Below, piece after piece: positions 378 to 43,939 of a DNA stretch of 50,910 nt. How positions within the stretch are numbered: the first letter of the stretch is position 1; each line of letters starts with the position of its first letter. The stretch comes from an uncultured Lachnospiraceae bacterium (GTDB taxonomy: Bacteria > Bacillota > Clostridia > Lachnospirales > Lachnospiraceae), in contig CANRFZ010000019.1 in the NCBI GenBank assembly GCA_947630025.1, forward strand, positions 1 to 50,910. The letters are read 5' to 3'. The notes beneath the pieces were generated by a model. That model worked only from the letters and a program-made list of their open reading frames with translations. It searched no databases and had not been told where the DNA came from. Position numbers and translations under genes: made by a program.

Positions 378-1136
378 ATGAAAGAACAATTATACACCAT
401 CCCACTGAATGATGCGGTGAATGCCGGCGACGAATGCCCCTTCTGCTTTATCGAGCGGAACGTGGAGCAGGATCTTCTCGACTTCGTGCTGGGCTCCGGC
501 TCCTCGTATATGGAGAGCGACATCCGCGAACAGACCGACCGGGCCGGCTTCTGCCGCAGCCACTTCAAAAAGATGTTCGACTACGGCAACACGCTGGGCA
601 ACGCTTGGATTCTGAAGACGCACTACCGCCAGATGATCCGTGAGATGCAGAGCCGGTTTCAGGACTATAAACCCGGCAAGACGTCGTTAAAGGACAGGCT
701 GAAAAAGTCCTCCGGACGGCAGAATCCGATCGGCGTCTGGGCGCTGGAAAAGGAGAAATCCTGCTACATCTGCAGCCAGTACGCTGACACTTACGAGCGC
801 TATCTGGACACCTTTTTTGTCCTGTATAAAAAGGACGAGGCGTTCCGCGACAAGATCAGAAACGGCAAGGGCTTCTGCCTGCCCCACTTCGGCGACCTGT
901 GCGAAGCGGCGCAGGCCCGTCTCGGCGACAAGGAGCTGGCGGCATTTTTTGACATGATGTTCCCGCTGATGGAAAAGAACATGGAGCGGCTCTCCGAGGA
1001 CGTCTCCTGGATGGTGGAAAAATTCGATTACCGCAACAAGGACGCGGACTGGAAGACTTCCAAGGACGCGATCCAGCGGGGAATGCAGAAATTAAAAGGC
1101 GGGTATCCCGCAGATCCGCCCTATCAGAAAAGCTGA
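378..1136 (+). CDS. DUF6062-type protein with two CxxC/CxxH zinc-binding-like motifs
   Basis: A 252-residue protein that I place in the DUF6062 family, common in clostridia and of unknown function. It has two matching halves. Each carries a CxxC pair followed by a CxxH pair: CPFC then FCRSH in the first, CYIC then FCLPH in the second. This pattern suggests two bound metal ions, probably zinc, but no enzyme motif is visible. There is no signal peptide or membrane segment. The frame is open further upstream to 285, but that part lies inside a palindromic repeat; the ATG at 378 follows a G-rich sequence at suitable spacing, so it is preferred. The gene ends 15 bp from the converging aldo/keto reductase gene. 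The family name is from recognition of the N-terminal pattern, not a search. Confidence 0.75.
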   Translation: MKEQLYTIPLNDAVNAGDECPFCFIERNVEQDLLDFVLGSGSSYMESDIREQTDRAGFCRSHFKKMFDYGNTLGNAWILKTHYRQMIREMQSRFQDYKPGKTSLKDRLKKSSGRQNPIGVWALEKEKSCYICSQYADTYERYLDTFFVLYKKDEAFRDKIRNGKGFCLPHFGDLCEAAQARLGDKELAAFFDMMFPLMEKNMERLSEDVSWMVEKFDYRNKDADWKTSKDAIQRGMQKLKGGYPADPPYQKS

Positions 1137-1151
1137 CCTAGAAACATTCTC

Positions 1152-2303: not shown

Positions 2304-2316
2304 ACTAATCTCCTTA

Positions 2317-4908
2317 TCATCCAATTTCCAAAATCTCCTCCAGCACCGTCATCAACTGGTCCACGTCGATGGGCTTCGCGACGTGTGCGTTCATGCCGCT
2401 CTCCAGCGCTTTTTTCCGGTCCTCGTCGAAGGCGTTCGCAGTCATGGCCACGATCGGGATGCCTGCCCGCGCGGGATCTGCCATCGCCCGGATCGCTCTC
2501 GTGGCGTCGTAACCGTTCATCTTAGGCATCTGAATATCCATCAGGACGAGCGCATAATACCCCGGCTCCGCGTTCTTCACTTTCTCCACGGCCACCGTGC
2601 CGTCCTCCGCCGTATCGACGACGAAGCCCTTCTCGGTGAGCAGCTCTACGGCGATCTCCCGGTTCAGCTCGTTGTCCTCCGTGAGCAAAAGCCGCGTGCC
2701 TTTCAGACGTTGTGCGAGATCGCGCTTCTCCTGCGCCCGATCCGTCATCTCCTGCGCGCGCAGGGAATCGTTTCCGGCGGCGATCAGGACATCCCGCAGA
2801 TCCGAGAGGAAGATCGGCTTGTTGCAGAAGGCGGTGACGCCCGCCGCCCTCGCCTCCTCCTCGAAAGGCGACCAGTCATAGGCGGTGACAACGATAATCG
2901 GCGTACTGTCTCCCACGATGCCGCGGATCTGCCGCACCACTTCCAGCCCGTTTAAGTCGGGCAGAAACCAGTCCACGATATAGGCATAGTATTCGTCGCC
3001 CAGCTCATACGCCTGCCGCGCGTGCAGAACGGCCTCCTTGCCGTGCAGCACCCACTCGGGACGCATCCCGATCTGCATGAGCATCTTGGTGATACTGTCG
3101 CAGGTCGTGTAGCTATCGTCCACCACCAGCGCGCGCATTCCTTGCAGCGCCGCCACGCTGCCCTCTTTCTTCGGCTCCGTCTGCAGGCGGAAATCGAGGT
3201 TGATGATAAATTCCGTCCCTTTGCCCGGCTCCGAGTGCAGCTCGATCGTGCCGCCCATGGCGTCGATGATATTCTTGGCGATCGCCATCCCCAGGCCCGT
3301 TCCCTGAATGCCGCTGGCGGTCGTATTCCGCTCCCGCTCAAAGGGCTCGAAAATATGTCTGGTAAATTCCTCACTCATGCCGATGCCCGTGTCCTTGACT
3401 CGTATCTCATAGGAGCCGTAGCCTTTGGGCGCGCGGGATTTCTGCCGGATCGTCAGCGCCACCGTTCCGCCGGGCGGCGTGAACTTGATCGCATTGGAGA
3501 GCAGATTTAAGAGCACCTGATTGACGTGCAGTTTATCGCAGTAAATATCCTCGTCGATGACGTCCACCGCGTCCATGTAGAAGTCAAGCTGCTTGGCGTG
3601 CATCTGCGTCTGGATGATATCGCGCATATCCCGGAAAATATCGGAGAGCGAGCACTCCTTTTCCTCGATATTCAGCTTGCCAGACTCGATGCGGCTCATG
3701 TCCAGAATGTCGTTGATCAGCGAGAGCATATGGTTGCTGGAGGCAAGGATTTTTTTCAGATACTCCTGCACCTTTTCGCGGTTGTCCAGATTGGTCTGTG
3801 CCAGCGTCGTAAAACCGATGATGGCGTTCATCGGCGTGCGGATGTCGTGGGACATATTGGAGAGGAAGGCGCTCTTGGCGCGGTCGGCGGCCTCGGCCTT
3901 CTGCAGTTTCTCCGTCAGCACCGCCTGATCCACCGCCTGCCGCATCGTCTCCTTGGCGCTGCGGCTGACTGTGCCATAGTAGAGCACGATGACCACCGCC
4001 AGCAGGACGCCCAGTACGAGGCAGATCCGCTGCACCGCAAAGACACTGGCGAAAGCTTCCCTTTCCGGCACGGACACGGCGATCTCCCATGCGTTGATGC
4101 CCGCAGGCGCATAGTACATATACTCCCAGCCGTCCGTGTTCGGCGTGCGGAAGACCACATACCCTGTGCCCTGATTCATCATGTCCGCCGTGTACGCATC
4201 CCACGTCTGGTCGCCCTTCGTCTTCCTCGGCGACACGGCTGCGGAATAGTCCCTGATATTGCCCAGATGATCGTGCCATGTATCCAGTATAAACTGCCCG
4301 CTGCGCGTGTCGATGATGTAAGCGCTGGCGCTGGCATTGTAGATATTGTCGATATTCAGGCTATCCGGCAGACTGTCCAGATCCGTCACGCCGTAGAGCA
4401 CGGCCGCCGTCCTGCCGTCCTGCATGATCGGCACAAAATGTCTGAGGATATCCCTGCCGTCCACCGTGGAAACGCGGTCAGAGATATGTTCGCCCAGAGC
4501 GGCTTCCTCCGTAAAAGAGAGATTTTCGCTGGCCGCATCGATGACGCTGCCGTCCGGCAGGAGCACCTGATCGTCCGCCAAAAGCACCCGCACCTTCATC
4601 GTCTCCAGCAGCGGCTCATTGGCCATCATCACACTAAGCGTTGCCTCCCGATCGAAATTGTCCGCCCGGGAGATCGTGTCCGCCATGGCGTTGAGCAGGC
4701 GGCTGTCCCGCATCAGCTTCGAGGTCACTTCCTCGATAACGGTGTTGACGCCCTCCTCCATGCGGCCCAGCGACCGCTCCCGGATGGAAGCCGTGATCCT
4801 GAAATAGGCGATGAGTAAGAGCCCTACAATGATGGCGATGACAATACCTGTCGCCCGCAGGCTCTTGTTTTTCCGCAGCGCTTTCCTCTGTCTTCTGCTT
4901 TCCTCCAT
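2317..4908 (-). CDS. Hybrid sensor histidine kinase with two receiver domains
   Basis: An 863-residue membrane sensor kinase. A first membrane segment (about residues 19-38) and a second (near 290-310, RICLVLGVLLAVVIVLYYG) flank a large extracellular sensing domain of the Cache type. Then come the HisKA domain with phospho-acceptor His354 in SHDIRTPMN, an HATPase domain (NLLSNAIKF N-box; DTGIGM and GTGLGMAI G-boxes), and two receiver domains with likely acceptor Asp646 (VDWFLPDLNG) and Asp791 (LMDIQMPKMNG). There is no Hpt or DNA-binding output domain, so signal output must involve a protein encoded elsewhere. Start at 4908 has GGGAGAGG upstream; the 28-residue longer frame lacks one. A strong promoter lies at 4963-4992. 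The aldo/keto reductase gene follows at 13 bp. Confidence 0.92.
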   Translation of the reverse strand: MEESRRQRKALRKNKSLRATGIVIAIIVGLLLIAYFRITASIRERSLGRMEEGVNTVIEEVTSKLMRDSRLLNAMADTISRADNFDREATLSVMMANEPLLETMKVRVLLADDQVLLPDGSVIDAASENLSFTEEAALGEHISDRVSTVDGRDILRHFVPIMQDGRTAAVLYGVTDLDSLPDSLNIDNIYNASASAYIIDTRSGQFILDTWHDHLGNIRDYSAAVSPRKTKGDQTWDAYTADMMNQGTGYVVFRTPNTDGWEYMYYAPAGINAWEIAVSVPEREAFASVFAVQRICLVLGVLLAVVIVLYYGTVSRSAKETMRQAVDQAVLTEKLQKAEAADRAKSAFLSNMSHDIRTPMNAIIGFTTLAQTNLDNREKVQEYLKKILASSNHMLSLINDILDMSRIESGKLNIEEKECSLSDIFRDMRDIIQTQMHAKQLDFYMDAVDVIDEDIYCDKLHVNQVLLNLLSNAIKFTPPGGTVALTIRQKSRAPKGYGSYEIRVKDTGIGMSEEFTRHIFEPFERERNTTASGIQGTGLGMAIAKNIIDAMGGTIELHSEPGKGTEFIINLDFRLQTEPKKEGSVAALQGMRALVVDDSYTTCDSITKMLMQIGMRPEWVLHGKEAVLHARQAYELGDEYYAYIVDWFLPDLNGLEVVRQIRGIVGDSTPIIVVTAYDWSPFEEEARAAGVTAFCNKPIFLSDLRDVLIAAGNDSLRAQEMTDRAQEKRDLAQRLKGTRLLLTEDNELNREIAVELLTEKGFVVDTAEDGTVAVEKVKNAEPGYYALVLMDIQMPKMNGYDATRAIRAMADPARAGIPIVAMTANAFDEDRKKALESGMNAHVAKPIDVDQLMTVLEEILEIG

Positions 4909-4962
4909 ATGCCTCTCCCTTTCCAAACCACTCCCCGGCGGGAACGCGGTGCCTGCAGAATT

Positions 4963-4992
4963 ATTATATAAGATTCCCCTGTCTATTGTCAA
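4963..4992 (-). promoter_or_regulatory. Promoter of the hybrid kinase gene
   Basis: On the minus strand TTGACA (4992-4987), an 18-bp spacer and TATAAT (4968-4963) match the vegetative consensus exactly in both boxes. It lies about 55 bp before the kinase start codon. Confidence 0.8.
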
Positions 4993-5007
4993 TTTGCGAA
5001 CGGAGCC

Positions 5008-5042
5008 TAAAAAAAGAGCTGGCCGCCGCCAACTCTTTGTTT
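5008..5042 (-). terminator. Rho-independent terminator of the small acidic protein gene
   Basis: On the minus strand AAAGAGTTGGC and GCCAGCTCTTT form an 11-bp stem with one G-T pair and a four-base loop, followed by a run of T. It sits about 60 bp after the stop of the gene ending at 5102. Confidence 0.8.
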
Positions 5043-5101
5043 TTACTTCTTTCTTTTTTTACTTCTTTACTTCTTTCCTGCCTGCTGCTTTTCCCGTCTG
5101 C

Positions 5102-5470
5102 TTACTTCTCTGCGCCGTCCTCGTCGTCAAAGAATTCTTCCACCTTTACTTTGGCTTTATCGGCTTCCTCTTTGACTTTACCGGCAGTCTCCTCCGCCGC
5201 GCCCACGATCTTGTCTGCGGTGTCGGCCTTGGCAGCGTCGATGCCCTCTTTGAACTCCTCCGCCTTGTCCAGATTCAGGTCCACATAATTGCGGCTGGCG
5301 TCCTTCGCCGTATCCTCCTCCAGATCGTCGTCAAAATTGTCAAAATCGTCATCGTCGTCGAAATTTTCATCCGCAAAACCGTCTTTCTTCTGCAGATAAT
5401 AGTACGCGCCTGCCGCAACAGCGCCGAGCGCCGCCGTCACCATTAAAAACTTACCGAATTTCTTTGCCAT
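5102..5470 (-). CDS. Small acidic membrane-anchored protein
   Basis: A 122-residue protein of unknown function. The N-terminus (MAKKFGKFLMVTAALGAVAAGAYYYLQKKD) is one short hydrophobic segment with positive charges before it, so the rest probably faces the cell exterior or stays tethered at the membrane. The remainder is highly charged, with an Asp-rich stretch (ENFDDDDDFDNFDDD), then a helical Lys/Glu/Ala part ending in EFFDDEDGAEK. This resembles the loosely defined YtxH-like small stress proteins, but no specific family is claimed. The ATG at 5470 has AAAGGAG upstream; the longer frame to 5635 runs through AT-rich intergenic DNA. It is divergent from the TetR gene and ends before its own terminator. 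Confidence 0.75.
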   Translation of the reverse strand: MAKKFGKFLMVTAALGAVAAGAYYYLQKKDGFADENFDDDDDFDNFDDDLEEDTAKDASRNYVDLNLDKAEEFKEGIDAAKADTADKIVGAAEETAGKVKEEADKAKVKVEEFFDDEDGAEK

Positions 5471-5634
5471 AAGGGTTCTCCTTTCACCGACATCATGTAA
5501 TATATATAGTAATACTATTTTACCAAATTGAAAAGGGAATATGAGCAAAAAAATATGATTTTTTTCGCATCCGCCGCGCGGCATACAATATCTTGTGTCT
5601 GAAAAATTTTTTAAAACAAGTTTTTTGTCAAACA

Positions 5635-5686
5635 TTGAATCGTCATGTTATTTATGATATATTATATTTCGACTCATAAAGTCAAT
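5635..5686 (+). promoter_or_regulatory. tetR promoter with overlapping candidate operator
   Basis: TTGAAT (5635-5640), a 17-bp spacer and TATATT (5658-5663) form a promoter toward the TetR-type gene. Immediately downstream, GACT-CATAA-AGTC (5671-5683) is an imperfect palindrome placed where a repressor would block transcription. Autoregulation is inferred from position only. Confidence 0.55.
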
Positions 5687-5742
5687 GAAAACGGATTTTC
5701 CGTACAAAATACAGGGTGCAGACCGCACGGATAAGGATTGGT

Positions 5743-6348
5743 ATGAACGAGAAATTTTTTGATCTGAAAAAAGAAAAACAGGACCGCATGATCAACGCCG
5801 CGCTGAAGGTATTCGCCTTAAACGGCTACAAACACGCCAGCACGGACGACATCGTGGCGGAGGCAGGGATCAGCAAGGGGCTTCTGTTCCACTATTTCGG
5901 GAGCAAATCGGGGCTCTACACGTTCCTGCACGACTATAGCGTGCGCTTTATGAAACTGGAATTGACCACGGGAGTCTCCTCCTCCGAAGACGACTATTTC
6001 GAGATCCGCAAGCAGATGGAAGCCGCCAAAATGCAGGTTTTGAAAAACTATCCCTATATGCAGCGCTTTCTCGACCGCTGCGCGGCGGAAACCGCGGAGG
6101 AAGCGGTAAACGCCATCCGCGCGGAGCGGCGCGCCATACAGGATGTGTACGCCGTGCTGAAAAATCAGGCCGACCGTTCGCGGTTTATAGACAACGTATC
6201 CTATGAAAAGCTGGACGCGATGCTGGACTATACGCTGACGGGGCTTCTCGGCGCCCACTGCGCGGGCGATTCGTTCCAGCCGGAAAGTCTCTACGAGGAA
6301 ACCGTATCCTATCTGGACATGATGAAAGAAATTTCCTATAAAAAATAG
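5743..6348 (+). CDS. TetR/AcrR-family transcriptional regulator
   Basis: A 201-residue regulator. The N-terminal helix-turn-helix is clear: INAALKVFALNGYKHAS, then TDDIVAEAGISKGLLFHYFGSKSGLYTFL, the standard TetR pattern. The C-terminal two thirds form the variable ligand-binding part, so the ligand cannot be read. The ATG at 5743 follows AAGGA at six bases; the frame is open to 5716. The gene is divergent from the small acidic membrane protein and may control it as well as itself, given the palindrome between them. It converges with the MocR-type gene, with a repeat between them. Confidence 0.88.
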   Translation: MNEKFFDLKKEKQDRMINAALKVFALNGYKHASTDDIVAEAGISKGLLFHYFGSKSGLYTFLHDYSVRFMKLELTTGVSSSEDDYFEIRKQMEAAKMQVLKNYPYMQRFLDRCAAETAEEAVNAIRAERRAIQDVYAVLKNQADRSRFIDNVSYEKLDAMLDYTLTGLLGAHCAGDSFQPESLYEETVSYLDMMKEISYKK

Positions 6349-6351
6349 AAA

Positions 6352-6483
6352 TCAACGTCGCATGAAACGTAAAAACAGTATAAGGCGGGCGCGAATTTGA
6401 GACTCGCATCGCCCATCGTGGGAACGCTCCTGAACGGAGATCAAAGTCACATGAAGCGCTGAAAAACAGTATAAGGCAGGCAC
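6352..6483 (+). repeat. Family 1 hairpin repeat copy B, framed by a 40-bp direct repeat
   Basis: The core at 6386-6445 matches copy A of family 1 (GCGAATTTGAGA, then CGC...GGGAACGCTCC and a GGAGA tail). On either side lies a direct repeat of about 40 bp: 6352-6391 and 6440-6483 both contain an ATGAA(A/G)CG segment and AAAAACAGTATAAGGC. The copy ends in GGAGATCAAAGTCACATG, again placing an ATG a few bases after the tail, but here only a four-codon frame follows. It lies between converging genes. Confidence 0.65.
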
Positions 6484-6487
6484 GGTT

Positions 6488-7900
6488 TTACGCCCAGATC
6501 CGCTTCAGGATTTCCACGCCCCGGACGATCTCGTCCGGCGTCAGCGCGCCGTACCCCAAAATCATTCTGGCAGGTTCCTCGGAATCTGCCTTTTCTATTC
6601 TGTAGTCCTGCATCGGATAGACTTTGACGCCCGCGTCCATGGCCGCCTGCGCCAGCGCATCCTCGCTCCTGCCTTTTCGATCCATCAGCACGATATGAAG
6701 CCCGGCGTTGCTCCCGGAGATAAGGAACGCCTGCTCCAGCGGCTTCAGGCCGTTCAGCAGCAGATCGTGTTTCTCCCTGTAGCGCTTGCGCATTTTGTTC
6801 AGATAGCGCTCGAAATAGCCGTCGCGGATAAACTCGTTGAGGATCGTCTGGTCGATTCTGGACACGGTGGAGGAATAAAAGCCGCACCTCTCGCGGTAAC
6901 GCTTCAGCAGCGGATACGGCAGCACCATATAGCTGATGCGGATGGCGGGGGCGATGGCCTTGGAAAAGGTGCCGATGTAGACTACCCTGCCGTCGGCGTC
7001 GGAAGCCTGCAGCGACGGCAGCGGCTTGCCCTTGTAGCGGAACTCGCTGTCGTAATCGTCCTCGATCAGATAGCGCTCCGGCGCCTCCGACGCCCATTTT
7101 AAGAGCTCCATCCGCCTCCCGATCGGCATCGACACGCCCAGTGGGTACTGGTGCGCCGGCATCACGTAGGCCGCCTGTGCGCCGGTTTTGCGCAGGCAGT
7201 CCACCCGCATACCGTTCTCGTCCGCCGGAACGAGCGGCACCGGGTAGGCGAACGAGCGGAAAATCCGGTAGGCGCGCACATAGGTGGGGTTCTCCATCGC
7301 CACGGGGATGTGCCGCCCGAGTATCTTTTCCAGCAGCACTAGCAGATAATCGTTGCCGGCGCCGATGACGATCTGTTCCGGCGTGCAGTTGACGCCTCTG
7401 GAGCCGTGCAGATAACGGCAGATCGTCTCCCGGAGCGAAGCGTCTCCCTGCGGCTCTCCCAGCGAGAACATATGGCTATTGGCGTCCACCAGCGTATTCT
7501 TGGTAATTTTCTTCCATGTCGCATAGGGGAAAAAGCGCATATCAATGGCGTTTGGCGAGAAATCGCAGTATGTGACACTTGTGTCATTTTCATTGACCGA
7601 TTCGGTCACTGTCTCCTGACGGCCTTGTTCCAACGCATATAATTCTTCAAACGCACTGACAAAATACCCTCTGCGGGGCTGCGATTCCACGTACCCCTCC
7701 GCGACTAACTGCCCGTAAGCCATGTCCACGGTGGTGCGGGATACCTGCAGATATTCAGAAAGGAAACGCGCCGACGGAAGTTTTTCATTCCGCAGCAGGT
7801 TTCCCGTCCTGATCTCGTTCCTGATATATTCATAGATTTGTTCATACAGTGTGAGCCCGCTATCCGGGTCCAGTTGTATGTGAATCGGCAATTCTTTCAT
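6488..7900 (-). CDS. MocR/PdxR-type regulator (GntR helix-turn-helix fused to aminotransferase fold)
   Basis: A 470-residue fusion protein. Residues 1-80 are a GntR winged helix (LYEQIYEYIRNEIRTGNLLRNEKLPS, then SRTTVDMAYGQLVAEGYV). The rest is a class I aminotransferase fold with the PLP region YLIEDDYDSEFRYKG and the Schiff-base lysine in TFSKAIAPAIR. Members bind pyridoxal phosphate and act as regulators, often of vitamin B6 or amino-acid genes. No pdx, GABA or ectoine gene is next to it, so the target is unknown. The start has a GGGAG site about 11 bases upstream. The DUF2225 gene lies upstream on the same strand. Confidence 0.9.
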   Translation of the reverse strand: MKELPIHIQLDPDSGLTLYEQIYEYIRNEIRTGNLLRNEKLPSARFLSEYLQVSRTTVDMAYGQLVAEGYVESQPRRGYFVSAFEELYALEQGRQETVTESVNENDTSVTYCDFSPNAIDMRFFPYATWKKITKNTLVDANSHMFSLGEPQGDASLRETICRYLHGSRGVNCTPEQIVIGAGNDYLLVLLEKILGRHIPVAMENPTYVRAYRIFRSFAYPVPLVPADENGMRVDCLRKTGAQAAYVMPAHQYPLGVSMPIGRRMELLKWASEAPERYLIEDDYDSEFRYKGKPLPSLQASDADGRVVYIGTFSKAIAPAIRISYMVLPYPLLKRYRERCGFYSSTVSRIDQTILNEFIRDGYFERYLNKMRKRYREKHDLLLNGLKPLEQAFLISGSNAGLHIVLMDRKGRSEDALAQAAMDAGVKVYPMQDYRIEKADSEEPARMILGYGALTPDEIVRGVEILKRIWA

Positions 7901-35081: not shown

Positions 35082-35828
35082 ATGCAGACAACGCAGACAA
35101 CCCACCCATCTTCCCCCTGCGCGCTGGTCACAGGCGCATCCCGCGGTATCGGTGCAGCCATAGCGGAGGCGCTGGCCGGGGAGGGATATGCCCTGTACCT
35201 GACGTGCCGCCGCTCCGCGGACAGGCTCGGCGCTCTGGCCGACAGGCTGGCCGCACAGTACGGCGTCTCCTGCACGCCCGTCATAGCGGATATGGGAAAA
35301 GAGGAAGACGTGGACAGGCTTTTCGGCCTGATTCCCTCATTGAACGTGCTGGTCAATAACGCCGGCGTCTCCTATATCGGCCTGCTCCATGAAATGTCCG
35401 CCGACGACTGGAGACAGGTAATGGCCTCCAATCTCGACTCCCTCTTTTACACGTGCAGGCGCGCGGTGCCGCTGATGCTGCAGAACCATAGCGGCAGAAT
35501 CGTCAACATCTCCTCCGTCTGGGGCAGCGTGGGCGCCTCGATGGAAACCGCCTACTCCGCCTCCAAGGGCGGCGTCAACAGTTTTACAAAAGCGCTGGCA
35601 AAAGAGCTGGCTCCCAGCGGGATTCAGGTCAATGCCGTCGCCTGCGGCGTGATCGACACGGACATGAACCGCTGCCTGACCGCTGAGGAGGTGGACGCGC
35701 TGCGGAGCGAAATCCCCGCTGACCGTATCGGTCAACCAGAGGAAGCCGCACAGATGGTGCTTTCCGTGCTCCACGCGCCCGCCTATATGACCGGTCAGGT
35801 CATCACACTTGACGGCGGCTGGTATTAA
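35082..35828 (+). CDS. Short-chain dehydrogenase/reductase (FabG-like)
   Basis: A 248-residue NAD(P)-dependent oxidoreductase. The cofactor motif is VTGASRGIGAAIA, the NNAG motif is present, and the catalytic Ser-Tyr-Lys are in NISSVWG and YSASKGG. The closing GQVITLDGGWY resembles 3-oxoacyl-ACP reductase FabG, but no fatty-acid synthesis genes adjoin, so the substrate is open. The start follows CAGGAG. It begins the run of plus-strand genes. Confidence 0.9.
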   Translation: MQTTQTTHPSSPCALVTGASRGIGAAIAEALAGEGYALYLTCRRSADRLGALADRLAAQYGVSCTPVIADMGKEEDVDRLFGLIPSLNVLVNNAGVSYIGLLHEMSADDWRQVMASNLDSLFYTCRRAVPLMLQNHSGRIVNISSVWGSVGASMETAYSASKGGVNSFTKALAKELAPSGIQVNAVACGVIDTDMNRCLTAEEVDALRSEIPADRIGQPEEAAQMVLSVLHAPAYMTGQVITLDGGWY

Positions 35829-35886: not shown

Positions 35887-35914
35887 TGCAACCTGCGCCA
35901 TTTTTTTCCCTTTA
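35887..35914 (+). promoter_or_regulatory. Candidate ECF-type promoter of the sigma factor operon
   Basis: TGCAACC (35887-35893) resembles the AAC-containing -35 element of ECF sigma promoters; a suitable -10 would fall near 35909-35914 (CTTTAT). If right, the operon is autoregulated. The -10 is not distinctive, so this is tentative. Confidence 0.3.
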
Positions 35915-36047
35915 TAAAGATAGAGAAAGTCATAAACAAAACCTTTTCATGGTAGAAAAGGCAGAGAAGACTTTAGGCAACAGCGGCAGAACGCATAAGC
36001 AAAAACATCGCAAAAAACTCATGCAGCATGAAGGAAGGAGAACCGTT

Positions 36048-36605
36048 TTGGAGGACAGGGCGATTATCGACCTCTACTGGCAGAGGTCTCCGCAGGCAAT
36101 CGACGAGACCGCGCACAAATACGGCGGCAGACTGGAAAGCCTGTCGGTCAATATACTGCACAACAGACAGGACGCCGAAGAATGCGTCAACGACACCTAC
36201 CATGCGGCCTGGAACACAATGCCGCCCCGGAAGCCGGAATTTTTGTTCGCGTATCTGGCCAAAATCGCGCGCCATTTTTCGCTGGGCAGATATGACTATT
36301 ATCACGCTCAAAAGCGGACGGCGTCGGTGGTGGAATTGAGCGCCGAGCTGGAGCGTTGTCTGCCCGCTCCCGACGATGCGGAGCGCAGAATGGAGAGCGA
36401 GGAGATCGGGCGGGCGATCAGCGGCTTCCTGCGCGGCCAGAGCGTGCGGACGCGGCAGGTTTTTGTGCGGAGATACTGGTATATGGATTCCGTCAAAGAC
36501 ATCGCCCGAACCTTTGGCATCAGCGAGAGTAATGTCAAATCGATTCTTTTTCGGATGCGCGCCGGACTGCGCGAATACTTTGAAAAGGAGGGCATCGCAC
36601 TATGA
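36048..36605 (+). CDS. ECF-type RNA polymerase sigma factor
   Basis: A 185-residue sigma-70 family protein with region 2 (SLSVNILHNRQDAEECVNDTYHAAW) and region 4 (RQVFVRRYWYMDSVKDIARTFGISESNVKSILFRMRAGLREYF) and little else, the ECF layout. The start is a TTG at 36048 with AAGGAG seven bases upstream; upstream in-frame ATGs (35949 and others) lack such a site and give no homologous residues. The stop overlaps the next gene's ATG as ATGA, so the downstream membrane protein is translated from the same message and is its likely partner. Confidence 0.87.
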   Translation: MEDRAIIDLYWQRSPQAIDETAHKYGGRLESLSVNILHNRQDAEECVNDTYHAAWNTMPPRKPEFLFAYLAKIARHFSLGRYDYYHAQKRTASVVELSAELERCLPAPDDAERRMESEEIGRAISGFLRGQSVRTRQVFVRRYWYMDSVKDIARTFGISESNVKSILFRMRAGLREYFEKEGIAL

Positions 36606-37657
36606 GAGGCAGAGATTTGCTGGACGCCATGGAATACATCGACGACGCGCTGGTGGATGAGGCGGCGCTGCCGGATGAGATGCTGGTGGACGAAGCGACG
36701 CAGCCGGTCGAAACGCTGCAGAACGAGACACCGGTGGACGAAGCGCTGCCTGATGGCGGCAGCACGAGACGCGGTTCTTCCAGACGGCTGCGCTTCTTCT
36801 ATACTGCCGCCGGGCTGCTGGCCGCGGCGGGACTCTCCGCGCTGGCAATACACACCTACCGTCTCTCCGGGCATACCGCCGCCGGAGCGCAGGAGCAGCC
36901 CACGTCTGAATCGTCTGAAATCGCCGCAGGAAATGTGCCCGGCCAAGAACCGGCTGCGGCAGCGGACGGAAACGCCGGGGCAGACATGGCATCCGACGCG
37001 GCGGCGGACGAAAGTGCCGAAGCAGACACGGCATCCGGCGTGGCAGCGGACGAAAGCACAGATGCAGGCATAGCGGAAGGTGCGGCAGCGGACGAAAGCG
37101 CCGAGGCAGACACGGCATCCGGCGCGGCGGCAGACGAAAGCTCAGAAGCAGGCATAGCGGAAGATGCGGCGGCGGACGAGAATACCAAGCAGCAGGCTAA
37201 GGCCGCCCAAGAGTATACGGTCATCCACGGCTATCCGCAGGACGAAACCGGAACGGCATATGTGAATGTCGATTATGCCCTGCCCGAAAAAGGAACTTTT
37301 TTCTGCACGATTCTTTTGGAGAACGCCATTGGATTTTATGACGGAACATACAACACGGCGAGCAGGGAAAGCGGCCTCCCATACGCCTATGCGGTTCGCA
37401 TCAATGTATTCGGCGACGCGGTGGGAGACGGCGGCGATGCCTCCGGCGAAAACTATATGCTCCTGAGTCTCAGCGAAGACGGACGCGGCAAGCTCAGAGC
37501 GGAATACCAGCGTCTTCTGGAGCTCGGATACCACGTGTCGCTGACAGAAAATGACGATAGTGTCATATTGACCGGAACGCTGACCAAGGAAGAAATCGAC
37601 TCTTTCAGGCCGCTGCCCGATTACGGCTATATTTTCCAATTTGAAAATGAAGAATAG
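36602..37657 (+). CDS. Probable membrane-bound anti-sigma factor with repeat linker
   Basis: A 351-residue single-pass membrane protein. Residues 1-63 are an acidic cytoplasmic part opening MRGRDLLDAMEYIDDALVDEA, similar in style to N-termini of proteins following ECF genes in this group. A helix lies at about 65-88 (FFYTAAGLLAAAGLSALAI). Outside, residues about 100-200 are an Ala/Asp/Glu/Ser linker with four 14-residue repeats, then a compact C-terminal domain (about 210-351) with no recognised family. The anti-sigma call rests on coupling to the sigma gene and topology; there is no classical zinc anti-sigma motif. Confidence 0.65.
   Translation: MRGRDLLDAMEYIDDALVDEAALPDEMLVDEATQPVETLQNETPVDEALPDGGSTRRGSSRRLRFFYTAAGLLAAAGLSALAIHTYRLSGHTAAGAQEQPTSESSEIAAGNVPGQEPAAAADGNAGADMASDAAADESAEADTASGVAADESTDAGIAEGAAADESAEADTASGAAADESSEAGIAEDAAADENTKQQAKAAQEYTVIHGYPQDETGTAYVNVDYALPEKGTFFCTILLENAIGFYDGTYNTASRESGLPYAYAVRINVFGDAVGDGGDASGENYMLLSLSEDGRGKLRAEYQRLLELGYHVSLTENDDSVILTGTLTKEEIDSFRPLPDYGYIFQFENEE
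37001..37183 (+). repeat. 42-bp in-frame tandem repeat in the anti-sigma linker
   Basis: Units start at 37001, 37043, 37085 and 37127, with a partial fifth at 37169. Each begins GC(G/A)GC(G/A)GACGAAAG and encodes AADES plus nine residues. Units 1 and 3 resemble each other (AEADTASG), as do 2 and 4 (xxAGIAEx), so an 84-bp pair was duplicated. Confidence 0.9.
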
Positions 37658-37778
37658 GCGTAGAGGCAGCGCAGAAACACAGGCAGCAGCGGCATACACG
37701 AAAGTAACACGAAAATAGAAGCAGCATGGAAACAGGCAGCATCGAATCGCGTGAAGGAAGCGCAGAAACGGAGCGGAT

Positions 37779-39263
37779 ATGAAAAAGAAACTTTTATCGG
37801 TATTTCTCATCACACTGGGCATAGGGATGCTGAACGCCTGCGGCGGCGCGCCGGAGATAGCGCCCGACGAAGCGCAGCGGGAACAGAAGCAGACATCGCC
37901 TGCCGCGGCGCAGACAGACGGCACACAGGCGGACGGCGCAAGGCAGACGCAAGATGCGCAGAATATGCAGAATGCGCAGAATCCCAGCCGGATGTCTGGC
38001 GTTACGGAGCTGACGGACACTACGGCTGCCGATACCGCCGTCGGCGTAGCGATCGACTATTCGATAAACGATTACCGAAATCTGCAGGACTTTAGTTATG
38101 ACTTGTTCCGATTGAGCGCCGACGAGACGAACCCCGTGTTATCGCCCGTATCGGCGTACCTGTCGCTCGCCATGGCCGGAATGGGCGCCAAAGGTGACAC
38201 GAGAGAGCAGTTCGCGGACGTACTCGGCGCAGATATGACCGTGTTTGCCGACGATATGATGAACTCGTATCTGGCCGACGAGGAAAGCATGACGCTGCGC
38301 GCCGGCAATTCGACGTGGATCGACGAGGGATTTGGCGTAAGCGAAGAATGGCTGGGCGAGATCCGCTCCCTGATGGACGCGCAGGCGTTCCGGGCGGACT
38401 TATCCGGCGAGGAGGCGATGAACGCCGTCAATGCGTGGATCAGCGCAAACACGGAGGGCCTGATAGACGGAATGCCGGAAAACCCTTTCGACGACCGCAC
38501 CGCGCTGGCCCTGATCAATACGCTGTACTTTAAGGCGGACTGGCTGAACCCGTTCGACGGTCAGGCTACCGCGCGGGAATCTTTTATGCCCGACGGCGCG
38601 GACGCCGTGGAAACGGATATGATGAACAAATATGCCGAACACTGTGATTATATTGCCAATGATTTTGCCGAAGGCGTGGTTCTGCCCTACCGAAGCGCAT
38701 CCGGCACAAACATCGCGTTCGTCGCAATCAAACCCGCCATGCTGCCGTATCCCGAAGCGGCTGCCGGGGAAGGCGCGGCGGCGGACGTGATGATACCGGC
38801 CAAATACGACATCCGCACCGTATATGGCAAATTGACCAGTGAAGTCATAAACGATATGATCGAGGGCAGAACGGACCGTCCGGTCAATTTGAAACTGCCT
38901 GTCTTTGCGATATCGTTCGAGCGGAAACTGAATGACGACCTGATCCGCATGGGACTGGACAAGGCTTTTGGCGATTCGGCAGATTTCAGCGGTATCGGCG
39001 ACGGGCTTTCCATCAGTCTGGTACTCCAACAGTCAAAAATCATCGTGGACGAAGCGGGCACGGAAGCGGCGGCGGCGACGTTGACCGCAGAGGCCGGAAG
39101 CTCCATGGCAGAACCGACGGATGTGGTCAATGTGTATTTCAACGAGCCGTTCCTATACATGGTCATGGATATGGACAGGAAAACGCCGTTGTTGATCGGC
39201 ATCATGGACAATCCGGCTGTGCAGGAGAAACTCCCGGCGTATGCCAAGCCGATGGCGCGTTGA
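37779..39263 (+). CDS. Lipoprotein serpin (serine protease inhibitor)
   Basis: A 494-residue serpin predicted to be anchored outside the membrane. The N-terminus MKKKLLSVFLITLGIGMLNAC is a lipoprotein signal with lipid-attachment Cys21, followed by a Gln/Ala-rich linker to about residue 85. The serpin fold shows NPVLSPVSAYLSLAMAGMGAKGDT, NAWISANTEGLI, ALINTLYFKADW and the C-terminal PFLYMVMD. The reactive loop hinge is GTEAAAATL from Gly427; counting from the conserved P15 Gly puts P1-P1' at Ser441-Ser442 after Ala-Gly, suggesting inhibition of elastase-like proteases with small P1 preference. It follows the sigma/anti-sigma pair by 121 bp, with CGGAG before the ATG. Confidence 0.92.
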   Translation: MKKKLLSVFLITLGIGMLNACGGAPEIAPDEAQREQKQTSPAAAQTDGTQADGARQTQDAQNMQNAQNPSRMSGVTELTDTTAADTAVGVAIDYSINDYRNLQDFSYDLFRLSADETNPVLSPVSAYLSLAMAGMGAKGDTREQFADVLGADMTVFADDMMNSYLADEESMTLRAGNSTWIDEGFGVSEEWLGEIRSLMDAQAFRADLSGEEAMNAVNAWISANTEGLIDGMPENPFDDRTALALINTLYFKADWLNPFDGQATARESFMPDGADAVETDMMNKYAEHCDYIANDFAEGVVLPYRSASGTNIAFVAIKPAMLPYPEAAAGEGAAADVMIPAKYDIRTVYGKLTSEVINDMIEGRTDRPVNLKLPVFAISFERKLNDDLIRMGLDKAFGDSADFSGIGDGLSISLVLQQSKIIVDEAGTEAAAATLTAEAGSSMAEPTDVVNVYFNEPFLYMVMDMDRKTPLLIGIMDNPAVQEKLPAYAKPMAR

Positions 39264-39327: not shown

Positions 39328-39356
39328 TTGCATTGTCCGGACGAAAGAATTATAAT
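39328..39356 (+). promoter_or_regulatory. Promoter of the bceRS-like operon
   Basis: TTGCAT (39328-39333), a 17-bp spacer containing GTCCGGAC, and TATAAT (39351-39356). It is about 125 bp before the GTG start of the response regulator. Confidence 0.78.
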
Positions 39357-39358
39357 CT

Positions 39359-39421
39359 CCCATAGAAAATGATTATTTCCCATAGAAAATGATAATTTAG
39401 AAAATGGTAATTTCCCATAGG
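39359..39421 (+). repeat. 20-bp repeats in the bceRS leader
   Basis: CCCATAGAAAATGATTATTT (39359-39378) is followed directly by CCCATAGAAAATGATAATTT (39379-39398), then AGAAAATGGTAATTT and CCCATAGG (39399-39421), a partly degraded third copy. They begin two bases after the -10 box. Confidence 0.85.
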
Positions 39422-39480: not shown

Positions 39481-40158
39481 GTGACAAAAGCATCGAAAAT
39501 CATGATTGTGGAAGATGACTCTGCCATCCGGGAAGAACTTGTGCTGCTATTGGAAAACGAAGGCTATCAGGTTCTGACGGTCACAAATTTTGACACCATC
39601 ACGGATCAGGCCGTACAGGAGCAGCCTGATCTTATTCTTTTGGACATCGGACTGCCGCGGCAGGACGGATTTTCCCTGTGCGCCGCCCTGCGAAAAACTG
39701 TCCCGGCGCCGATCATCTTTGTCACCAGCCGGGACTCCGGGCTGGACGAGGTGCGGGCGCTGAGTCTGGGCGGGGACGATTACATCACGAAGCCGTACAA
39801 CGTTCCCGTCCTGCTGGCCAGAATCAGGGCCGTCCTGCGCCGCAGCAAAGATGCGTCTGAACACGCGGACACTATGGAAGCCGCGGGCGTGCGCTTAAGC
39901 CTGACAAAAGGAACGCTGGCATCGGCAAAAAAGTCGGTGGAGCTCACCCGGAACGAGCTGCAGATTATGGCCTGTCTGATGGAGCATAACGGGCAGATCG
40001 TCTCCCGCGCCAGTCTGCTGGACGCACTGTGGGACAACCAAATCTACATCGACGACAACACGCTCAGCGTCAACATGACGCGGCTTCGCGGAAAGCTGGC
40101 GGAACTGGATCTGCCCGATCTGATCAAAACCCGCCGGGGAATGGGGTATCAGCTATGA
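39481..40158 (+). CDS. bceR: BceR-like response regulator
   Basis: A 225-residue OmpR-type regulator. The receiver domain has acidic pocket VEDD, phospho-acceptor Asp55 (LLDIGLP), and the lysine in DDYITKPYN. The winged-helix domain ends NTLSVNMTRLRGKLAELDLPDLIKTRRGMGYQL in pieces. The GTG at 39481 follows AGGGAGG at normal spacing. It overlaps the sensor gene as ATGA. The set RR, small kinase, ATPase and ten-helix permease is the Bce module for cell-wall-active peptides. Confidence 0.93.
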   Translation: MTKASKIMIVEDDSAIREELVLLLENEGYQVLTVTNFDTITDQAVQEQPDLILLDIGLPRQDGFSLCAALRKTVPAPIIFVTSRDSGLDEVRALSLGGDDYITKPYNVPVLLARIRAVLRRSKDASEHADTMEAAGVRLSLTKGTLASAKKSVELTRNELQIMACLMEHNGQIVSRASLLDALWDNQIYIDDNTLSVNMTRLRGKLAELDLPDLIKTRRGMGYQL

Positions 40159-41165
40159 CCTTCGGAAAATTTTTGTCTGACCGACTGAGTCGGATCATCC
40201 TGTGGCTCGCCTGCTTCGCGGCAGCGGCTCTTTTTCTCACCGCAACCGGCACGCAGACCGGCGTCCTCCTCCTTTTGCTGCCGCCTCTGCTGCTGGTTTT
40301 TCTGACCGTTACAGGAACAGACTATCTGCGCGAACGTGCCCGCCTCCGGGAACTGGAGAACATTCTGGAAGGCTTGGATGAAAAATATCTGTTCACCGAA
40401 TGTGTCCCCGCGGCAGACCGGCTCTATGAGCGCTGCCTTTTTGACCTGATGCGCCGTGCAGGTCAGGCGATGATCGGCGCGGTGTCCGATGCGCGCGCCG
40501 CCCAGCGGGACTACCGGGAGTACGTGGAGAGCTGGGTGCACGAAGTCAAGACTCCCATCACCGCCGCGCGGCTCGTCTGCCGTCAGCTTGCGGGGGAACC
40601 CCGGCGAAAACTGGATTTGGAACTGGCACAGATTGAGGCCCATGTGGAAAGGGCCTTATTCTACGCCCGCGCGGAGACGCCGGAGCAGGACTGCGTGATC
40701 CGTCAGGCCGTCTTGTCCGACATCGTCTCCGAGGCAGTGGAAAACCACCGGACGCTGCTGATGCAGAGCGGCGTCCGCATCGAGACGGAGGGCCTTGCGC
40801 AGCAAGTCTACACGGACAAAAAATGGGCCGCTTTTATTCTCGGCCAACTGCTCCAAAACGCCGCCCGCTACCGGAGCGACGCGCCAGTCATCACCCTATC
40901 CGCCAAGCCCATGGGAAACCGGGTGCGGCTCACCGTCCGGGACAATGGAATCGGCATCCCTGCCCACGAACTGCCCCGCGTATTTGATCGGGGATTCACC
41001 GGCTCCAACGGTCGTTTCCGCGGCGGGGCCACAGGCATGGGCCTGTACCTGTGCAAAAAACTGTCCGGCTTTCTGGAGCTGGACATTCATCTGACCTCGG
41101 AGGAGGGAAAAGGAACCTGTGTGGCTCTCACGTTTCCCGCCAAAGAGAATCTTACAAAAATGTAA
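40155..41165 (+). CDS. bceS: BceS-like intramembrane-sensing histidine kinase
   Basis: A 336-residue kinase with two closely spaced N-terminal helices (about 12-55) and almost no external loop, as in BceS kinases, which sense through the partner transporter. Phospho-acceptor His129 lies in WVHEVKTPITAARL; the ATP site shows QLLQNAARY, DNGIGI and GATGMGLYLCKKL. The true start is the ATG at 40155 overlapping the regulator stop. Its last codons overlap the BceR-type operator. Confidence 0.92.
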   Translation: MTFGKFLSDRLSRIILWLACFAAAALFLTATGTQTGVLLLLLPPLLLVFLTVTGTDYLRERARLRELENILEGLDEKYLFTECVPAADRLYERCLFDLMRRAGQAMIGAVSDARAAQRDYREYVESWVHEVKTPITAARLVCRQLAGEPRRKLDLELAQIEAHVERALFYARAETPEQDCVIRQAVLSDIVSEAVENHRTLLMQSGVRIETEGLAQQVYTDKKWAAFILGQLLQNAARYRSDAPVITLSAKPMGNRVRLTVRDNGIGIPAHELPRVFDRGFTGSNGRFRGGATGMGLYLCKKLSGFLELDIHLTSEEGKGTCVALTFPAKENLTKM

Positions 41166-41166
41166 G
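41151..41166. promoter_or_regulatory. BceR-type operator
   Basis: CTTACA-AAAA-TGTAAG is a perfect inverted repeat and fits the TNACA-N4-TGTAA box described for BceR-like regulators. It covers the bceS stop codon and lies 75 bp before the transporter ATPase gene, so the transporter probably has its own inducible promoter. A matching -10 near 41208 (TACCAT) is plausible. Confidence 0.78.
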
Positions 41167-41241
41167 GAAACCTAATCGCAATTCGATACAAGCGCCGTTC
41201 CTTTTGATGTACCATGAACCCATCAGAAAGGAGGCTATACT

Positions 41242-42000
41242 ATGCTGCAAGTGCAGAACATCGAAAAATACTACGGAAGCAGAAACAATGTCACCAAGGC
41301 TCTGGACCGGGTGAGCTTCGACGTGGCAGACGGGGAGTTTCTGGTCATCATGGGTGCGTCCGGCAGCGGCAAGACCACGCTGCTCAACTGCATCTCTACC
41401 ATTGACACGGTCAGCGCGGGCAAAATCCTGATGGACGGCGTCAATATCGCCGATCTGTCCGAGGACGCTCTGGCAAAGTTCCGTCGGGAACGGCTGGGCT
41501 TCGTGTTTCAGGACTTTAATCTGCTGGACACGCTGACGGTGGAGGAAAATATCGGTCTGGCGCTTTCCTTAAATCATATGAACGCGGGATCTGTGCAGGA
41601 GCGGGTGCGCAAGGTGGCCGAAAAATTTGGCATCACGGAAATTCTCTCCAAATTTCCCTATCAGATCTCCGGCGGACAGAAGCAGCGGACTGCCTGTGCC
41701 CGCGCCATCGCAGCGGGACAATCGCTGCTTTTGGCCGATGAGCCGACCGGTGCGCTGGATTCCAAAGCATCCAAAAATCTGCTGGAAATCCTGTCCACGA
41801 TGAACCGGGACTTGGGCGCAACGATCCTCATGGTCACGCATGACGCTTATAGCGCCAGCTACGCGGGCCGGGTGCTTTTTCTCAAAGATGGCCGCGTCTT
41901 TAACGAGCTGCTTCGGGGAGACCGGGACAGGTCTGTATTCTATCACGAAATTTTGGACGTTTTAGCCGCGTTGGGAGGTGATATCAGTGACGTTATTTAA
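41242..42000 (+). CDS. bceA: BceA-like ABC transporter ATPase
   Basis: A 252-residue ATPase of the MacB/BceA group. Walker A GASGSGKTTLLN, signature ISGGQKQRTACARAIA, Walker B LLADEPTGALDSKAS, and the switch histidine in MVTHD. The sequence FQDFNLLDTLTVEENI is typical for BceA. AAAGGAGG precedes ATG 41242. It overlaps the permease gene by 14 bp. Confidence 0.95.
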   Translation: MLQVQNIEKYYGSRNNVTKALDRVSFDVADGEFLVIMGASGSGKTTLLNCISTIDTVSAGKILMDGVNIADLSEDALAKFRRERLGFVFQDFNLLDTLTVEENIGLALSLNHMNAGSVQERVRKVAEKFGITEILSKFPYQISGGQKQRTACARAIAAGQSLLLADEPTGALDSKASKNLLEILSTMNRDLGATILMVTHDAYSASYAGRVLFLKDGRVFNELLRGDRDRSVFYHEILDVLAALGGDISDVI

Positions 42001-43939
42001 ACTGTCTCTCCGCAACGCAAGACGGCAGGCGCAGGATTATCTCGTCTATTTTGCCACTATGGTGCTGGCCGCCGCTCTGCTTTACGCCTTTAACGGACTG
42101 ATCTTTTCCGAGGAAGTGCGGCGTCTGGCCGAGGGAATGGCTACGCTTCCGGTTGTCATTTTTCTCGCCAGCGTCGTCGTCGTTTTTATCTTCGGATGGC
42201 TGGTGTCCTATTCTACCCGCTTCATGCTGACGAGACGCAGCCGGGAACTGGGGCTCTACCTCCTGAGCGGCATCACGAACCGGCAGGCGGCGCGGCTTTT
42301 CTTTCTGGAAAATCTGGCAGTGGGTGCGGTCAGCCTGTTCTTTGGCGTCGCTCTGGGCGGACTGCTCTATCAGGTGATACGCGCCATTGTGCTGTCCCTG
42401 TTTGGACTGCCGTACCGTTTCTCCCTGACGCTTTCCCTCCCTGCCGTCCTGCTGACTGTGGGCTATCTGACTGCCATTTATCTTTACGCGCTCCAAAAGA
42501 ACCGCAGGCGCATCCGCCGGATGAAAATATACGATCTGGTCTATTATGAAAAGCAGAATGAAAGCGCCGTCATCCGGACGGGCAAAGAGCGGCGGAGAAT
42601 CTTCCTCGCATCCGTTGTCGCAGGCGTAGCCGGAACCGCCCTGCTCATGGCAGGCGGCACGGCAGCCGGTCTTGTCGGCGCGGGAGGTGTCATTTTTGCC
42701 CTGTTTGGTTTTTTCCTGAGCTTTTCGTCGGGTGTTCCCGCCTTTTTTGACAAACGCCCCGCCAGAAAATATCAGGGGCAGAATCTGATCGTTTTCCGCA
42801 CCCTGACGGCTAAACTGGCCACAATGGGCATGGTCATGGCCATCATCTCTGTCATTTTCACCGCCACTCTCCTGACGGAAGGAAGCGCTTTCATGATCAA
42901 CGGGCTGGTCAAAGGCCGGGCGGCGGACAACGCCTGCTTCGACCTCTATCTGTCCGCCGACGGCGAGGAAAAGGATTTCTCCCCTTATCTCGATTCTATC
43001 GCGGAGAATATTCCGGTCGAGCAGTCTGTTTTGTACCGGATCTACGAAAGCGGCGGCACGCAGGTGATGGACTATATCCTTGCACACACCGATTATGACA
43101 ATTATATTGTGTATGAATCCGATCCTGTTCTTCGTTTCAGCGATTACGCCATGCTGCGGTCTTTGGCGGGTTATCCGGTTGTGGAGCCGGAGCCGGGGAA
43201 ATACCTGATTCACTGCAAAACCTTTCTCGAAGAACCGCTGCGCGGCTATGCCGGAACGATCTCCCTGAACGGAACCTCTCTGACAGCGGGGAGCATCCAT
43301 ACCGAGCATCTCAATCAGGGGTTCTACGATATGACCAATGGCCGGGATTATATTCTGGTCGTCCCGGACGAGGCGGCGGACGGCTTAAAGATACACCACA
43401 CGGCCTATGCCGCCAAAACGACAGAACCGGTGACGGAGGCGCAGCTTGCGGCGTTAAACGATATAGCCGAACAGAACGAGCAGACAGACTCGCAGGGCTA
43501 TGTATTTATCGATACCAAGGCGAACGAAGAAAACATGGCGGCCATGCAGATTTTACTGGTTGTTTTTCCTCTGTTCTATATAGCGCTTGCTCTCACGATG
43601 ACCGCTGCCGCGATCCTGACGATCCAGCAGCTCGCCGAAACAGACCGCTACCGGCGCCAGTTCGCGCTCCTGCGCAAGCTGGGAATGAACCGGCAGGAAA
43701 TGGCCCGCGCGCTGCGAAACCAGTTCGCCGTCTATTATACCATGCCGGTTGTTCCGGCAGTGTTGATTGCAGTCCCTTTTATCCTGCAATTATGCCGCCA
43801 GCCGGAGCCGGGGGTTATGGTAGGATACAACAGTCCGGCGGCTGTCATAACAATCTCCCTGAGCGTGTTCTTTTTCATTTACGCGGTCTATATCCTGCTG
43901 GCCTATAGCAGCTTGAAACGGAATGTGCTGCGGGAATAA
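41987..43939 (+). CDS. bceB: BceB-like FtsX-type permease
   Basis: A 650-residue membrane protein with the BceB layout: four helices, an internal pair, a large external domain (about residues 305-510) that contacts the peptide antibiotic, and the final three helices. SRELGLYLLSGI near the N-terminus and RRQFALLRKLGMNRQEMARALRNQ in pieces near the C-terminus are FtsX motifs. The start is taken as GTG 41987, after GGGAGG; GTG 41978 lies in that site. It confers resistance to, and helps sense, cell-wall-active peptides such as bacitracin or lantibiotics; the ligand here is unknown. Confidence 0.92.
   Translation: MTLFKLSLRNARRQAQDYLVYFATMVLAAALLYAFNGLIFSEEVRRLAEGMATLPVVIFLASVVVVFIFGWLVSYSTRFMLTRRSRELGLYLLSGITNRQAARLFFLENLAVGAVSLFFGVALGGLLYQVIRAIVLSLFGLPYRFSLTLSLPAVLLTVGYLTAIYLYALQKNRRRIRRMKIYDLVYYEKQNESAVIRTGKERRRIFLASVVAGVAGTALLMAGGTAAGLVGAGGVIFALFGFFLSFSSGVPAFFDKRPARKYQGQNLIVFRTLTAKLATMGMVMAIISVIFTATLLTEGSAFMINGLVKGRAADNACFDLYLSADGEEKDFSPYLDSIAENIPVEQSVLYRIYESGGTQVMDYILAHTDYDNYIVYESDPVLRFSDYAMLRSLAGYPVVEPEPGKYLIHCKTFLEEPLRGYAGTISLNGTSLTAGSIHTEHLNQGFYDMTNGRDYILVVPDEAADGLKIHHTAYAAKTTEPVTEAQLAALNDIAEQNEQTDSQGYVFIDTKANEENMAAMQILLVVFPLFYIALALTMTAAAILTIQQLAETDRYRRQFALLRKLGMNRQEMARALRNQFAVYYTMPVVPAVLIAVPFILQLCRQPEPGVMVGYNSPAAVITISLSVFFFIYAVYILLAYSSLKRNVLRE

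Follow-up and report, generated by a model that had tools for sequence, protein, structure and literature searches.

Do three adjacent genes of an uncultured Lachnospiraceae bacterium form one circuit that senses attacking proteases and answers with a protease inhibitor? In the window analyzed here, i.e., the whole 50,910-nucleotide stretch of contig CANRFZ010000019.1 (GenBank assembly GCA_947630025.1), a gene for an extracytoplasmic function (ECF) sigma factor is followed on the plus strand by a gene for a single-pass membrane protein, the predicted anti-sigma factor, and by a gene for a lipoprotein-like serpin. The initial annotation, made from the sequence alone, had proposed that the anti-sigma protein senses proteolysis, for example by host elastase, and releases the sigma factor to raise serpin output. 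The gene row, together with the repeated pairing and fusion of such genes in other genera, suggests that the switch likely senses proteases and would raise serpin output, and we assign a probability of roughly 55% to the three genes forming one circuit of this kind. As judged from sequence, the evidence makes this circuit a stronger and stranger candidate than first proposed, in that the serpin often appears to be the anti-sigma factor's own outer domain.

Linkage and fusion of serpins to sigma pairs

We surveyed 145 serpin loci, picked by serpin matches, together with the window, using a sigma profile built from sequences of the window's genus. The loci were drawn from the matches listed, a few listed places being omitted, and some loci stop at a contig end; by the time the last 55 of the 145 were added, the first 90 had shown the pattern, but these 55 simply completed the list and were not chosen for their sigma content. 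Among 168 serpin domain hits (167 open reading frames, ORFs, in 146 loci), 38 are preceded by an ECF sigma gene that lies on their own strand at a distance of no more than 2.5 kb, compared to five with the sigma gene downstream on the same strand, one upstream on the opposite strand and none downstream on the opposite strand. Random placement of the sigma genes, repeated 500 times, yielded a mean of 6.8 and a maximum of 13, and a slightly different distance rule gives 39 linked ORFs in 36 loci. Because the sigma profile comes from one genus and some loci end with their contig, other sigma types may be missed, and 38 of 168 is likely to be a lower bound. If the serpin had landed behind the pair by chance and had its own transcription, neither this bias of strand and side, nor the excess over random placement, nor the fusions described next would be expected, nor would a terminator-free gap before the window serpin. 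We consider such chance neighborhood quite unlikely, although the nearest serpins are unlinked and the linkage is scattered over the serpin tree.

In 19 cases, a serpin ORF directly follows the sigma gene. All 15 ORFs that were checked combine an N-terminus of the anti-sigma type with a membrane helix and a serpin; the helix was located by script in 15 of the 19 and by eye in L106 and L121, L190 and L226 lying outside the check. The N-termini of the 15 checked fusions match the profile of stand-alone anti-sigma factors of the genus with E values from 4e-19 to 3e-4 (set of 28), and at least 10 of the 15 overlap the sigma gene through ATGA or GTGA. A database search with the fusion L227 retrieved 877 proteins at E 1e-30 or better (7995 scored). 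An anti-sigma N-terminus (E <1e-3 for 1000 sequences) was detected in 92 of the 120 listed homologues of L227 versus none of the 120 listed homologues of the window serpin. The Pfam search on ten fusions returned the serpin alone in nine, the tenth adding one sub-threshold hit. For the fusion P0132, the AlphaFold model shows a serpin fold with high confidence (from residue 81 onwards, block means of 81-96 except in the loop 431-450) and a low-confidence helix at residues 32-55, and the Foldseek matches of this model are antithrombin, tengpin, antitrypsin and miropin. Where fusion homologues from metagenomes have a name, it is no more than "serpin family protein" or "serine protease inhibitor". 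Predicted anti-sigma factors with a serpin as outer domain are found in the family of the window and in at least one other family of its order, where the sigma gene and the fusion are both present in L236, L241 and L249 (20 order-level loci examined).

Several loci carry a fusion and a free serpin in the same row: (i) in L249, the order is sigma gene, fusion, free lipoprotein serpin; (ii) in L245 and L247, a lipoprotein serpin comes after the fusion, the available stretch containing no sigma gene; (iii) in L170, the order is sigma gene, secreted serpin, fusion. The strongest hint at a division of labor, with one serpin as sensor and another as effector, comes from these operons.

Four further arrangements were observed in these loci. 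On the minus strand of L106, the ORF 5476-7644 (strand coordinates) encodes a 719-residue anti-sigma-type serpin with a C-terminal part that, by eye, looks like leucine-rich repeats. L225 contains two tandem units of sigma and anti-sigma-serpin, the classic hinge being lost in the second serpin. In L142, L194 and L225, a sigma gene of the same family lies just downstream of the serpin on the same strand, the reverse of the order in the window. L138 contains five serpin ORFs in a row (597-6998) that form one tight clade, i.e., a local serpin expansion.

The predicted operon of the window

Re-reading of the window gave the following features:

35887..35918, plus strand: predicted candidate ECF-type promoter, comprising TGCAACC, 19 nt and a TATAAAG region
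36048..36605, plus strand: ECF sigma factor, 185 aa, likely TTG start (ORF list and profile matches)
36602..37657, plus strand: predicted single-pass membrane anti-sigma factor, 351 aa (ATGA overlap, helix, weak profile match)
36860..37213, plus strand: polar linker of the anti-sigma protein, 118 residues (87-204), 59% A/G/S/T/V and 23% D/E
37214..37654, plus strand: outer C-terminal domain of the anti-sigma protein (AlphaFold and structure search)
37658..37778, plus strand: gap before the serpin, 121 bp, without a terminator-like site (sequence scan)
37779..39263, plus strand: lipoprotein-like serpin, 494 aa (PF00079, E 9e-71; nearest solved chain alpha-1-antitrypsin, E 5e-38)
39057..39152, plus strand: serpin hinge and reactive loop, GTEAAAATLTAEAGSSMAEPTDVVNVYFNEPF (alignment to homologues and alpha-1-antitrypsin)

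The layout described in the initial annotation, with an ATGA overlap and a spacing of 121 bp, is thus the one that we find, the sigma stop codon and the ATG of the next gene sharing ATGA at 36602-36605. The sigma gene most likely starts at the TTG at 36048, preceded by AAGGAAGGAG, and a start at 35887 is disfavored; the alignments of the sigma relatives among the matches listed begin at the residue of this TTG. The product scores 55.2 bits against TIGR02937 (cut-off 42.9), and in Pfam the sigma-70 region 4 is above the cut-off and region 2 is below its own; having regions 2 and 4 only, it is a sigma factor of the ECF type.

In the predicted anti-sigma protein, the membrane helix begins near residue 65, and residues 1-21 match the N-terminal profile of stand-alone anti-sigma factors at 14 bits (E 5e-5, set of 28). 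The Pfam and NCBIfam searches with this protein gave no family above cut-off. Its repeats, noted in the initial annotation, are real: 14-residue repeats inside the linker correspond to tandem repeats of 42/84 nt at 36950-37179. The AlphaFold model of the whole protein is poor (mean pLDDT 42), and the outer domain has no structure match at E 0.001 or better and no sequence match among solved structures. Relatives in the protein database are eight close variants (74-89% identity), with a varying number of repeats, and the distant P0010 (32%); within the genus, a full-length match was obtained in the own genome only, two further genomes giving short weak matches. In the variant P0009, the first part, including the membrane helix, is replaced by unrelated residues, the result of either a rearrangement or an assembly fault.

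The serpin aligns with positions 2-370 of the 370 positions of the PF00079 profile, i.e., with the complete serpin fold, and in keeping with the initial annotation, it is a lipoprotein-type serpin with the intact hinge GTEAAAATL (residues 427-435). The small-residue stretch P15-P9 lies in GTEAAAAT, and the hinge, readable in 114 of the 120 listed homologues, is GTEAAAAT in 34 and GTEAAAVT in 74 of them. The reactive loop contains the residues GSSMAEP. Canonical counting makes Ser the P1 residue, and in the HMMER alignment, Met-Ala of the serpin faces Met-Ser of alpha-1-antitrypsin, which we take to be the cut site of the latter; presumably, Ser at P1 and Met-Ala alike would suit elastase-like enzymes. 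P1 and P1' are mostly small in the window-type and the fused serpin clades alike. These features predict an inhibitory-type serpin acting as a protease trap at the surface. An Asn at -2, unusual for this position, kept the lipobox LNAC from matching the strict pattern; the Cys is kept at this place in homologues, and a lipobox-like motif is present in 91 of the 120 listed. The named relatives are from Lachnospiraceae metagenome-assembled genomes, and no second serpin was found in the 2.6-Mb assembly of the window (82% complete). The serpin P0011 is 95% identical to that of the window, and it would fit on one contig with the anti-sigma variant P0009 (longest contig 3683 bases for each).

The window contains a single TGCAACC, located at 35887 before the sigma gene, versus 6.6 copies expected. 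Among 57 related sigma genes, counting that of the window, 13 have TG[CT]AACC ahead of them, a pattern found in 1.9% of 22,800 control windows, and six have it with the spacing to TAT[AT] (0.3% of controls); these counts, like those of the linker comparison below, take no account of relatedness. It seems probable that the window sigma factor reads this box, which lies 161 bp from the start codon versus 43-113 bp in the other 12 cases. The operon, with its spacing of 19, was not matched by the exact pattern TGCAACC-N18-TATA, and no motif pair stood out clearly in an unsupervised search. We found no plus-strand terminator, no sigma70-type promoter and no TGCAACC-type box in the 121-bp gap before the serpin, and the lack of such a box favors read-through into the serpin gene.

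The operon is preceded by a gene (35082-35828) scoring above the cut-off for the NCBIfam elongation factor P 5-aminopentanone reductase (YmfI). On the other side, at 39481-43939, a two-component system is followed by an ABC transporter ATPase gene and a permease-like gene, an arrangement that, in our view, resembles Bce-type peptide-antibiotic modules. An A+T-rich tandem repeat (39348-39420, 3.9 copies of a unit of about 20 bp of the CCCATAGAAAATGATAATTT type) separates the serpin from the response-regulator gene and is possibly a regulator binding region.

The two-component system itself (39481-41165) could control the serpin, given that its regulator gene begins 218 bp past the serpin and that a precedent exists in Bifidobacterium breve, where SerRK is a dedicated protease-inducible two-component regulator adjoining the serpin gene (PMC8012564; for this and the other papers cited, our statements refer to those parts of the text that were available). 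SerRK differs from the window in being a two-component system, not an ECF pair, and in lacking a fusion. The system of the window has its own ABC transporter genes after it, and at E 1e-15 a regulator match was found in five of the 145 other serpin loci and a kinase match in none; we set this explanation aside as highly improbable.

Distribution of the pair and the serpin

The sigma type of the window is present in 30 of 77 genomes of the genus, and 25 of 31 sigma pairs of the genus share the 4-base overlap at the start of the second gene. A serpin related to that of the window is found in 10 of the 77; one of these, in G008 (locus L014), sits behind a sigma pair of another type. The tree, constructed with FastTree from 166 serpin domains and accompanied by long-branch warnings, includes 19 serpins directly behind sigma, 20 linked but separate and 127 unlinked; it should be noted that the first label was set by the distance to the sigma gene, and the third gene of L170, a fusion, is labeled separate. 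Across strongly supported branches, the direct-behind-sigma state changes at least eight times and the linked-separate state at least 14 times. The first label is more clustered than shuffled labels (three of 500 shuffles as low). In the well-supported clade of the window serpin, six of 10 rows are linked, one of them (L014) to a different sigma type.

Several observations weigh against a dedicated circuit. Within the genus, the sigma type and the serpin stand side by side in the window only; in G016, G039 and G053, the two are located on separate contigs, and no serpin was found in 20 wider genus sigma loci (1.0 to 9.0 kb downstream covered). No sigma gene adjoins L012 and L013 (45%), the named serpins closest to that of the window; L101 and L103, of the same clade as the window serpin, are unlinked too, and unlinked serpins make up 127 of the 166 on the tree. 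Clustering of the linked-separate label on the tree does not exceed that of shuffled labels (as low in 115 of 500), so this linkage is not stably inherited. Furthermore, the profile match of the window anti-sigma protein is weak, two of 22 unlinked anti-sigma factors exceed 60 linker residues, the fused hinge, GVTGAAYT in 92 of 105 readable sequences (120 listed), departs from the classic one, and the genome's own subtilisin-like genes (three places) and trypsin-like genes (two) provide other possible targets. Taken alone, the test of the close surroundings would speak for a chance neighbor. The neighborhood that the initial annotation proposed to look for across Lachnospiraceae is found in part: same-strand, same-side linkage recurs, but L012, L013 and the 20 genus loci supply instances of the unlinked state that it had named as counting against its proposal.

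Pairs of this sigma family, differing in the outer domain, are present in 30 of the 77 genus genomes and in 81 of 200 family genomes, and PF00079 is found in 140 of 397 family genomes. In the available stretches, the pair mostly stands without a serpin (none in the 20 wider genus loci, three in 29 family loci) and other lipoprotein genes follow some pairs, as expected if it were a general envelope-stress switch that responds to a signal other than proteases and has the serpin as one of several protective cargo genes. We regard this explanation as somewhat unlikely: direct fusion of a serpin to an anti-sigma-type part, and operons with a fusion and a free serpin, would be odd for mere cargo.

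The polar linker offers a further comparison. Its median length is 68 residues in 11 serpin-linked separate anti-sigma factors (same sigma type plus L014, the window included and P0010 left out) versus 28 in 22 anti-sigma factors of the family without a serpin, whose loci have about 1.5 kb of flank, such that a serpin farther down could be missed (one-sided Mann-Whitney p 3e-4). The median is 24 in 31 anti-sigma factors of the genus, and 24.5 in the ORFs with the serpin directly behind sigma (n=16, including the secreted serpin of L170, which is no fusion). The long small-residue linker would fit a role as cuttable bait where the serpin is unattached.

A candidate circuit for protease sensing

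In the circuit that we infer, the anti-sigma protein would keep the sigma factor at the membrane. An external protease, likely with a preference for cutting beside small residues, would clip or disturb the exposed linker and the outer domain, and the M50 site-2 protease, a gene for which is present in the genome, would then complete the release of sigma. Transcription by the freed sigma factor would begin at the TGCAACC promoter of its own operon and extend into the serpin gene; the resulting lipoprotein serpin would capture the protease at the cell surface, turning the circuit off. The original interpretation gains from the recurrent linkage of serpins to ECF pairs, the serpin as outer domain in fusions and the longer linkers, and loses from the unlinked state of the nearest serpins.

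In the fused relatives, the serpin replaces the sensor domain, and there it is likely to be the protease receptor. The non-classic hinge implies that the fused serpins may not inhibit; by serpin rules as we understand them, P14, P12, P10 and P8 of this hinge still look able to insert, and the fused serpins may still be able to move. A broader reading, which we put forward tentatively and at somewhat less than even odds, is that bacterial serpins serve as protease receptors: attack on the loop would relax the serpin, its movement or the trapped protease would free the ECF sigma factor, and more serpin would be made. The window would then be a split version, with a free lipoprotein as output and the small-residue linker as bait.

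The protease might be bacterial, the subtilisin-like enzyme of the cell itself or of a competitor, instead of host elastase, the circuit being otherwise real. The subtilisin-like and trypsin-like genes of the genome would fit this. Small residues at the cut site favor elastase-like enzymes, and the predicted cut-site residues are mostly small. One clostridial serpin, a part of the cellulosome, is an inhibitor of subtilisin-like proteases (cited in PMC12484212), whereas siropins, which come from a gut relative, inhibit human elastase-like proteases (PMC8201313). On balance, a bacterial protease as the signal appears unlikely.

Siropins and other serpins of gut Firmicutes act on elastase-like host proteases, with no regulator described alongside in the available text (PMC8201313); for the window serpin, inhibition is predicted. 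Two known systems share the logic of the proposed circuit. In SigV-RsiV of Bacillus subtilis, an ECF sigma factor is likewise held by a membrane anti-sigma factor whose outer domain is the receptor of a host enzyme, lysozyme, and the output protects against lysozyme (PMC6066255). The output here is instead a serpin, which in relatives is also the outer domain, and no RsiV-type domain (DUF4179, lysozyme-binding) was found in the window anti-sigma protein in the Pfam search up to E 1. In SigI-RsgI of Clostridium thermocellum, membrane anti-sigma factors carry outer carbohydrate-sensing domains (CBM, GH) that have relatives among the output enzymes (PMC3413522, PMC12484212). That system differs in its sigma factor, its N-terminal domain and its carbohydrate signal; Pfam and NCBIfam searches detected no RsgI N-terminal domain in the window anti-sigma protein. 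The serpins of C. thermocellum are described as parts of the cellulosome, not as sensors (PMC3413522, PMC12484212).

The statement in the initial annotation that no circuit tying a serpin to its own ECF pair had been described holds in our literature search, the scope of which left most subscription journals outside; the published B. breve case is a two-component one. In the available text, PMC10059941, PMC12484212, PMC3413522 and PMC3990059 treat serpins and ECF or SigI pairs apart, and a text search of the 2021 serpin phylogeny (PMC8233489) found no sigma, operon or fusion in that part of it. Nor did the literature search find any other ECF system built on a protease inhibitor.

If the circuit is true, bacterial serpins, few of which have an assigned function, would gain one, namely the sensing and disarming of surface proteases in Clostridia, and the role of many metagenome proteins named "serpin" would become directly testable. 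If host elastase is the signal, gut inflammation would be tied to gene control in common gut bacteria.

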